A stretch of DNA of 64,000 bases, from assembly GCF_002954405.1 (NCBI RefSeq), contig NZ_MQWC01000004.1, positions 3,412,668 through 3,476,667 on the forward strand, read 5' to 3'. Shown piece by piece: positions 30,595-49,320 of this stretch. Made by a program: the position numbers and the translations under genes. Below the pieces are notes generated by a model. It was not told the origin of the DNA and searched no databases. It saw only the letters and a program-made list of their open reading frames with translations. Origin of the DNA: Salinibacter sp. 10B (lineage in GTDB: Bacteria; Bacteroidota; Rhodothermia; Rhodothermales; Salinibacteraceae). Every line of letters starts with the position of its first letter. Positions within the stretch are counted from its first letter, which is position 1.

Positions 30595-30727
30595 TCCCAA
30601 TTGGTACGTGCTGTAGTATAGGGACGTATGTGCAGATCCTTGGGGATACTCTCCTCCCCCAGGAAAACGGCACCGTCGTTGCTCTTGATTGCACTTAGTG
30701 GCCAGACTTGTTCTAGGCAATCGCGGG

Positions 30728-30820
30728 GGCCAGAGCCCATCCAGTTGACCAATTTAAGCCAGACTGTACTTTAGGTGGGCTCTAAGTCGGGATTGGACAT
30801 CTAGATGTTCAGGAGCGACG
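30728..30820 (+). repeat. Two-hairpin intergenic element, copy A
   Basis: Order: GGCCAGAGCC, a stem GAGCCCA (30733) pairing with TGGGCTC (30776), then GGACATC/GATGTTC hairpin (30795-30810), then AGGAGCGACG. The same order of blocks is found at 48398-48472 inside a MITE-like element, with a compensatory change in the first stem. Similarity extends weakly upstream to a GCACCG at about 30669. It lies in the 706-bp spacer between the ROK kinase and lptD, which has no convincing gene. Confidence 0.55.
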
Positions 30821-47303: not shown

Positions 47304-48224
47304 ATGACTGCAACCGTCCAAACCAACATGCGAACACACATAACCCGCTGGGCCGCTGCGGCCCTCACCGTTGCCCTCATTGGGGGCATTGGACCTGTCT
47401 CGGCCCTTGCCCAGAACGGAGGCGGCAGCTCTTCGGGGTCGGGCGCTGCCAAGAAGGAGAAGATTCAGCAATTGAAGAAGTCGTTCCGCTCGGGGCTTCA
47501 GGCGGCCAAGGCCAACGAGTCCACCCAGGCATACACCCAGCTCGAGCAGGCGCTTCAGCTGGCACAGGACATCGGTCATGATGGGGCGACCACCAAGATT
47601 ACCGGCTACCTCCAGAAGCTTCCGAAGAACTGGGGAAACACTGCCATCGAGAATGAGAACTGGGGGCAGGCCCTCACCCACTTTGAAAAGGGAGCGAAGT
47701 ATGCCCAGGACGATGCCTACATGTACTACGGGAAAGGGCTTGCGCTCGTGAACATGGACAGTACCCAGTCGGGACTGAAGACGCTTCGGCAGGCGATCGA
47801 GGTTGGGAATCGGACTGGAAATACCCGGGTGTCCGACCTTGCGACGTCTCGCATCCGAGACGAGTTCTTAGCCAAGGCGTCCAAGGCGCTCAATGCGCAG
47901 AACCCGACGACCGCGCAGGCGGATACGGCGCTGGCGACTCTCGACCGGATGGGAGAGTACGTGGAGCCGAACGCCTCGTCCATGTACTACCGGTCGCGCG
48001 CGCTCTTCGAGAAGCAGCAATTCCAGCAGGCGATTGATGCGGCTGAGCAGGGGCTCGACATGCACCAGGGCAGCCGGAGCGATGCGGCCAAGTACCACTT
48101 CATTGTGGCGGAGTCCCAGATGAAGCTTGGCAGCAAAGAGACGGCGTGCCAGCGGTTCGAGCAGGCGTCCTTCGGAGACTACAAGGCGCGGGCGGAGCAC
48201 TACCTCAAGAACGATTGTCAGTAG
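47304..48224 (+). CDS. Secreted TPR-repeat protein
   Basis: 306 aa with the ATG at 47304; an ATG at 47328 (MRTHITRWAAAALTVALIGG) would also give a good signal peptide, cleaved near SALAQN. Several TPR-type helix pairs follow: AYTQLEQALQLAQDIGHDG, WGQALTHFEKGAKYAQDDAY, MYYRSRALFEKQQFQQAIDA and ETACQRFEQASFGDYKARAE. Probably a periplasmic protein-interaction scaffold. It is monocistronic, closed by a strong terminator at 48269. No partner is evident. Confidence 0.8.
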   Translation: MTATVQTNMRTHITRWAAAALTVALIGGIGPVSALAQNGGGSSSGSGAAKKEKIQQLKKSFRSGLQAAKANESTQAYTQLEQALQLAQDIGHDGATTKITGYLQKLPKNWGNTAIENENWGQALTHFEKGAKYAQDDAYMYYGKGLALVNMDSTQSGLKTLRQAIEVGNRTGNTRVSDLATSRIRDEFLAKASKALNAQNPTTAQADTALATLDRMGEYVEPNASSMYYRSRALFEKQQFQQAIDAAEQGLDMHQGSRSDAAKYHFIVAESQMKLGSKETACQRFEQASFGDYKARAEHYLKNDCQ

Positions 48225-48268
48225 TCTCCAATCGCCCGGTCCGGTCGGCTGGATCCAACGTAGCAACA

Positions 48269-48307
48269 GGGCCTGTGCCTCCAGTCCGGAGGGACAGGCC
48301 CTTTGTT
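48269..48307 (+). terminator. Intrinsic terminator of the TPR gene
   Basis: GGGCCTGTgCCTCC, loop AGTCC, GGAGGgACAGGCCC, then TTTGTTGTT. Long GC-rich stem 45 bp after the stop. A MITE-like element is inserted at its 3' edge. Confidence 0.9.
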
Positions 48308-48315
48308 GTTGACGG

Positions 48316-48610
48316 CCTACCTACCGGACAGTTTGCTCAGAGCACCGAAAAATCTTCTCCAGCCGTCGCTCCAGACCCCGATCTAGGCCATCTAGATGGC
48401 CAGAGCCTATCTGACCTACGAATTTATAGGCTCCAAATCAAGTTTGGACATCTCGGATGTCCAGGAGTGACGTTAGGGAACCGGGAAATCGTTGGTGCAC
48501 TTTTGAGCAGTTTCGCTCATAGGTAGCGATCTCGAAAGAAAGATCAGCGGAATCGCCAGAGATTTTTCGGTGCCCACAACCGCGAAATTGAAAAGTGTCC
48601 GGTAGCTAGG
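48316..48610. mobile_element. MITE-like non-autonomous element, 295 bp, with target-site duplication
   Basis: Outer terminal inverted repeats: CCTACCTACCGGACA (48316-48330) and the complement of TGTCCGGTAGCTAGG (48596-48610), 14 of 15 matching. Inner arms: GCACCGAAAAATCT (48342-48355) and AGATTTTTCGGTGC (48560-48573), perfect over 14 bp. TTGACGG occurs directly on both sides (48309-48315 and 48611-48617), which is the mark of insertion with a 7-bp duplication. No coding capacity. Internal palindromes are GGCCATCTAGATGGCC (48386-48401) and GGACATC-tcg-GATGTCC (48446-48462). It lies between the terminator of a TPR gene and the convergent ruvA. The mobilising transposase is not in the window. 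Confidence 0.8.
48398..48472 (+). repeat. Two-hairpin intergenic element, copy B (inside the MITE)
   Basis: GGCCAGAGCC, a stem GAGCCTAT (48403) with ATAGGCTC (48426-48433), GGACATC-tcg-GATGTCC (48446-48462), then AGGAGTGACG. Same order as 30728-30820. In the first stem the T-A pair here is a C-G pair there, and the loop is shorter (15 versus 36 nt). Confidence 0.55.
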
Positions 48611-48711
48611 TTGACGGCATGAATAGACGCGCGAGGGACACGTGTACTTGCCAGTCACAGATTGGACGGACGGGGCCGCACGCGACGACGAACGGCGATG
48701 CACGACGCCGG

Positions 48712-49320
48712 CTAGTCTTGGCTTTCCTTGAGGGCGCGTTGTGTGAGCTCGTCGGCAGATTGAATGCCGGCATCGTCGCGGAGGACGGCCCGGATGGCAC
48801 GCTCGGCATCCGCCTTGCTGAGCCCAAGTTCGGTGAGGGCCTTCAAGGCATCGGCGCGCGCCTCGGCCCGGGCCTGAGAGCCGCCGCTGATGGGAGAGGA
48901 GTCTTCAAATACATCCAGGTCCGCAAAGCTGTCGCGGAGCTCCACGACGAGCCGATTTGCCGTCTTGCTGCCCACGCCTGAGATTTCGGTGAGGCGGCTC
49001 GTGTTCTCATCCATGACGTGATCGCGCAGCTCAGACGGCTGCATTGACGAGAGCGCCGAGAGCGCTAGTTTGGGGCCCACTCGCGACACGTCGGTCATCG
49101 TCTCGAAAACCTTGAGTTCAGCCTTCGTGGCGAAGCCGTAGAGCGCCTCCTTGTCCTCGCGAAGGTAGTGATAGGTGTGGAGGGTCACGTCCTCGTCGGT
49201 TTCGGGCAGGCGCTTGTATGTGGAGGTCGGCACATGGACACGATAGCCGAGGCCGCTGACGTCCACGAGGGCGGTCTCAGGGGTTTTGTCGACGAGTGTG
49301 CCGGAGACGTAAGCGATCAT
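48712..49320 (-). CDS. ruvA: Holliday-junction branch-migration protein RuvA
   Basis: 202 aa, normal length. Domain I is an OB fold (MIAYVSGTLVDKTPETALVD with GLGYRVHVP). Domain II has two helix-hairpin-helix motifs, VSRVGPKLALSALSSM and TEISGVGSKTANRLVVELRD. Domain III (about 150-202, ADALKALTELGLSKADAERA) contacts RuvB. RuvA binds four-way junctions and loads the RuvB motor during recombination repair. RuvB and RuvC are not adjacent here. Confidence 0.96.
   Translation of the reverse strand: MIAYVSGTLVDKTPETALVDVSGLGYRVHVPTSTYKRLPETDEDVTLHTYHYLREDKEALYGFATKAELKVFETMTDVSRVGPKLALSALSSMQPSELRDHVMDENTSRLTEISGVGSKTANRLVVELRDSFADLDVFEDSSPISGGSQARAEARADALKALTELGLSKADAERAIRAVLRDDAGIQSADELTQRALKESQD

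Follow-up and report, generated by a model that had tools for sequence, protein, structure and literature searches.

A probable MITE with IS4-type ends in Salinibacter sp. 10B and a hairpin core common to several MITE end classes

A MITE is commonly taken to be what deletion has left of a single IS. The MITEs described in bacteria and archaea are non-coding elements of 50–500 bp that share their terminal inverted repeats (TIRs) with an IS and have target-site duplications (TSDs) of matching length (PMC10969869; PMC3119063), and for HqIRS39 of Haloquadratum, mobility of the MITE is reported although the genome lacks a functional transposase (PMC3119063). The IS10 subgroup of the IS4 family comprises IS of 1200–1350 bp with CT ends and 9-bp direct repeats (PMC2266710, Table 1); TSDs of the IS4 family span about one helix turn. 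We analyzed a stretch of 64,000 nucleotides (the window) of the genome of the halophilic bacterium Salinibacter sp. 10B (G000, 4.75 Mb, 10 contigs), in which a block had been read from the sequence alone as a transposed, non-autonomous element. We conclude, with a probability of about 0.9, that this block is a MITE with IS4-type ends. Its mode of movement is that of an ordinary MITE; the unusual part is a core common to MITE classes that need different transposases.

By comparing the element with relatives and with an autonomous IS, we redefined it as a 293-bp sequence with CTA...TAG ends (Table 1). The sequence-only reading had described a block of 295 bp flanked by a 7-bp TSD; the element is real, but these edges are not. 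TTGACGG is present at both edges as part of the longer 9-bp repeat GTTGACGGC, and the duplication had been counted as 7 bp because one extra base at each end had been assigned to the element. The outer inverted repeats, inner arms and internal palindromes described in that reading are all present: the outer arms match at 89% over 19 nt (48316–48334 and 48592–48610), whereas the inner arms match perfectly over 14 nt. Similar inner arms were found, by reading, in the D-type MITEs (the class of the window element, see below) of other genera. The length of the element lies within the range of about 50–500 bp, it has no transposase gene, and the ORF list of the window contains no ORF of at least 60 aa wholly within it.

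The location by a terminator in a convergent intergenic region was likewise borne out. The genes for a TPR protein (+ strand, ending at 48224) and ruvA (– strand, ending at 48712) converge on the element, which begins 14 bp beyond a terminator-like stem (48268–48302). These two genes (47304–49320 in the window) are adjacent only in this genome and in no relative examined; their best matches in relatives are far apart or on separate contigs, so that a rearrangement junction lies between them here.

Table 1. Features of the window element, a second core in the window and partner IS in congeners
Feature	Position	Strand	Basis
Left target-site duplication GTTGACGGC	48308..48316	.	9-mer repeated exactly beyond the right end; arrangement recurs in many relatives
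Probable MITE, 293 bp, non-autonomous, IS4-type ends	48317..48609	+	several copies in G000 and in the genus; TIR and TSD
Left terminal inverted repeat CTACCTACCGGACAGTTT	48317..48334	+	ends shared with autonomous IS L098/L099
Left inner inverted repeat GCACCGAAAAATCT	48342..48355	+	perfect match to 48560–48573
Shared hairpin core GTCGCTCC...GGAGTGAC	48365..48471	+	covariance model R1, E 4.7e-18 (model built partly from the window copy itself)
Palindromic unit GGCCATCTAGATGGCC in core	48386..48401	.	insertion absent from minimal cores, alignment A1
Core stem GAGCCTAT...ATAGGCTC with loop	48403..48433	.	sequence and single-strand fold
Core hairpin TCCAAATCAAGTTTGGA, H2 of minimal core	48432..48448	.	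covarying in alignment A2
Palindromic unit TGGACATCTCGGATGTCCA inserted in 3' arm of core	48445..48463	.	alignment and fold
Right inner inverted repeat AGATTTTTCGGTGC	48560..48573	-	partner of left inner arm
Right terminal inverted repeat AAAGTGTCCGGTAGCTAG	48592..48609	-	arm comparison and ends in relatives
Right target-site duplication GTTGACGGC	48610..48618	.	9-mer identical to the left one
Second, diverged core in window	30678..30819	+	R1 match, 54.6 bits, E 1.7e-12
Partner IS, 1203 bp	G010:C1:2169399-2170601		same ends, perfect 9-bp duplication; ORF split
Partner IS, 1216 bp	G011:C123:68820-70035		same ends, perfect 9-bp duplication; intact transposase

The multiple copies that had been expected are present in the same genome. 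Besides fragments, G000 contains six complete copies, four near-identical (98–100%) and two diverged (77–78%), and three of the four near-identical copies, when aligned, showed 1, 4 and 5 differences per 293 bp. Such close similarity among four copies shows that the element moved recently. Perfect 9-bp repeats flank three of the six complete copies (L001–L003), and the repeat flanking L005 matches at 8 of 9 bases. At L006, one GTAG unit is apparently missing from the right end, and reading the flanks with a 4-bp deletion allowed gave a perfect 9-mer. However, the TSD of L004, one of the near-identical copies, matches at only 6 of 9 bases, which, like the deletion needed at L006, counts against the MITE reading; L004 is possibly a recombination product. 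Elements with these ends also occur in congeners and in further genera of the family (Salinibacteraceae, Rhodothermota), where most of the 9-bp duplications are perfect. The chance of one perfect 9-mer is 4^-9, and many distinct insertions carry perfect 9-bp direct repeats; the element is far beyond chance.

An empty site, proposed earlier as a check, was found for copy L002: in the congener G008, the orthologous intergenic region is element-free. The window site itself offers no comparison: its flanking genes are not neighbors in relatives, and an exact empty site is therefore not obtainable there. The outcome that would have spoken against transposition, namely a single-copy sequence conserved at the site, is excluded. 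A plasmid origin was rejected, a search of the plasmid collection having given no match. As side observations, the right flank of L004 (G000:C4:1767895-1768189) has sequence in common with the left flank of the core element L021, and about 58 sites in G016, a genome from another genus of the family, have IS4-type ends, including core-less MITEs of 145–216 bp and IS fragments at contig ends. The family with IS4-type ends appears to be very active in G016.

An IS sharing the ends of the element, whose existence the sequence-only reading had suggested looking for, was recovered by a pattern search of the family, which gave two complete examples in two congeners (Table 1). The TIR common to the MITE and to these IS is CTAGCTACCGGACAGTTT, and the TSD length is 9 bp in both. 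In G011, the IS has an intact ORF for a DDE transposase of 388 aa, which matched PF01609 (E = 4e-11) and passed the cut-off of NF033591 (NCBIfam IS4_2; 158.9 bits, cut-off 152). The YREK motif (Y(2)R(3)E(6)K) of the partner transposase is incomplete: Y, R and E are present, and the copies that were read have Q or E in place of K. Because of this replacement, we term the IS IS4-family-like. No homologue of the transposase was found in PDB, and G000 contained no cognate transposase, the best match being partial with 32% identity.

In the mechanism that we propose, the 18-bp ends of the MITE are those of this 1.2-kb IS4-family-like IS in sister species. The IS transposase, acting in trans, would recognize the ends, excise or copy the element and join it to a staggered cut, and the 9-bp duplication would follow. 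The target duplications are observed, whereas the enzymology is taken from the IS4 family. Copies in the home assembly, which has no cognate transposase, may be orphaned or may rely on a transient donor. The interior of the MITE consists of the inner inverted repeat and a palindrome-rich core, rather than of a deleted transposase gene.

The central 107 bp of the element recurs with different surroundings. Using a covariance model of 16 examples with a counting threshold of E ≤ 1e-3, we found this core at 38 distinct places in G000. All but one of the 13 genomes of the genus gave a match (12 of 13), whereas the 14 genomes that represent other genera of the family gave none, not even G016 with its many IS4-type ends; within the family as sampled, the core is restricted to the genus. 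A scan of public genomes gave strong matches only in records of Salinivenus iranica, Salinivenus sp. and Bacteroidetes MAGs, and Salinivenus is a member of the Salinibacteraceae. Two candidates for a distribution beyond the family were rejected: the matches in a MAG labelled Chlamydia trachomatis were weak (E 0.003–0.006), and a Deltaproteobacteria contig had no model match. Viral carriage was rejected too, the 20-mer GGCTCCAAATCAAGTTTGGA being absent from viral contigs. The second core in the window adjoins sequence resembling GTGCTAT-type ends.

The core is present in MITEs of at least three classes of ends and duplications (IS4-like, 9 bp; GGCAATCGCAT, 10 bp; GTGCTAT-type, short). Class D, to which the window element belongs, has IS4-type ends and a 9-bp duplication. 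Class E elements are about 200–240 bp with CA.GGCAATCGCAT ends, and seven core-bearing examples (L180, L186, L192, L199, L284, L299 and L311) have perfect 10-bp or 11-bp direct repeats. Classes A/B and C/F have GTGCTAT-type ends, which are mutually related, and CTCTAACAA-type and CTATGAAGT-type ends; some copies in this group show short CTNAG or TNA-like direct repeats, which are provisional as duplications. The ends of A and B share ACGNNT.GTGCTAT. As candidates for an autonomous IS with GTGCTAT ends, five neighboring ORFs were considered and rejected, being host genes rather than transposases. Two cores lie 60 bp apart within a 493-bp stretch with GTGCTATTGAA ends (L189/L246, G000:C4:2193226-2193724), apparently one MITE nested in another.

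Larger cores, including that of the window element, have further palindromic units, GGCCATCTAGATGGCC among them, at differing points. In an alignment of 13 distinct minimal cores (A2), the hairpins H1 and H2 (columns 5–23 and 68–86) were Watson-Crick paired in 182 of 182 pair cells, with no G.T or A.C. Four pairs in each hairpin, eight in total, had changed on both sides, and no half-changed intermediate occurred in the 13 sequences. The covariation score of H1 and H2 was 0.268, which none of 500 shuffles reached, although this control overstates the significance, since the elements that supplied the cores are related. In most copies, the loops of the two hairpins, CTTGA and TCAAG, are complementary to each other (58 of 65 cells). 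A single long rod was rejected as a structure for the core: its own variable pairs scored below their shuffles.

These covarying hairpins, together with the strong single-strand folding of the window core (z = –5.2), would also suit a chromosomal regulatory or structural RNA, or an intergenic repeat of the BIME/REP-like kind, rather than a transposon. As an account of the whole element, this is refuted by the precise ends with 9-bp target duplications, the dispersed near-identical copies, the autonomous IS bearing the same ends and the orthologous site without the element, and we found no Rfam match in 48200–48720 at E ≤ 1; we consider such an origin highly improbable. For the core, the lack of G.T intermediates favors a palindrome at the DNA level over RNA, and we infer that the hairpins reflect replication correction, a cruciform or a single-strand DNA hairpin more than an RNA structure.

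How the core came to lie between such different ends can be answered only tentatively. Most likely, it would have passed between MITEs by recombination via its repeated arms. Two elements, L179 and L208, have unlike ends on their two sides; recombination through the core should give such mixed ends, but because the A and B ends involved are related to each other, they are suggestive only. In the weakest step of the proposed mechanism, selection or the correction of palindromes at replication may then preserve the core as a DNA hairpin or cruciform. We hold this combined account of exchange and upkeep to be possible, at somewhat less than even odds.

Two other histories of the core seem less probable to us. 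In the first, all core-bearing MITEs would go back to a single ancestral element; its ends would later have diverged or been exchanged for others, and the core would simply be its original interior. The A, B, C and F end types do look related, A and B through their shared motif, and several types show the short CTNAG/TNA direct repeats; however, the D ends and the E ends, with their 9-bp and 10-bp duplications, resemble neither those of A/B/C/F nor one another, and in other genera D-type ends occur without the core. We regard common descent as rather unlikely. In the second, the core would be a hairpin module that is mobile in its own right and enters MITEs by insertion, instead of being exchanged by homologous recombination. 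The presence of the same core in at least three end and TSD classes would fit such insertion, as would the homologous ends of core-less D-type MITEs in other genera and the smaller palindromic units that are themselves inserted at several points of the core. However, reading of the flanks showed no direct repeats that consistently border the core, the mixed-end elements suggest recombination, and the sequence adjacent to the core is partly common between classes, which leaves an inserting module doubtful. In its boldest form, which we offer as a speculation with the odds against it, the core would be a selfish or useful DNA-hairpin module that colonized MITEs of at least three unrelated IS types in one genus and grows by palindromic insertions of about 16–20 bp, while palindrome correction or a function as a cruciform keeps its hairpins strictly Watson-Crick.

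Apart from these histories, core-bearing MITEs need different transposases, and their common part is the interior, not the ends. Such a shared interior allows one to ask whether the interior aids the spread or survival of MITEs, for example through host factor binding, a cruciform or transcription insulation, and the core hairpins document, in natural sequences, how palindromes are kept perfect.

Compared with known systems, the partner IS resembles the IS10 subgroup of the IS4 family in length (1203–1216 bp), CT ends and 9-bp direct repeats; it differs from the IS4 family in the Q or E at the YREK lysine, and the window element itself is without a transposase. The window element is like other bacterial and archaeal MITEs, including the HqIRS elements of Haloquadratum, in its size, its non-coding nature, its IS-shared TIRs and its TSD length. 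Unlike MITEs in general, its interior is a hairpin core common to several end classes, for which we found no precedent in the limited open-access literature. BrickBuilt of Porphyromonas gingivalis is also a MITE of repeated internal subunits (PMC4596501). However, the interior of BrickBuilt is a 23-nt tandem repeat (PMC4596501), whereas that of the window MITE consists of palindromic units at varying points of a two-armed core.
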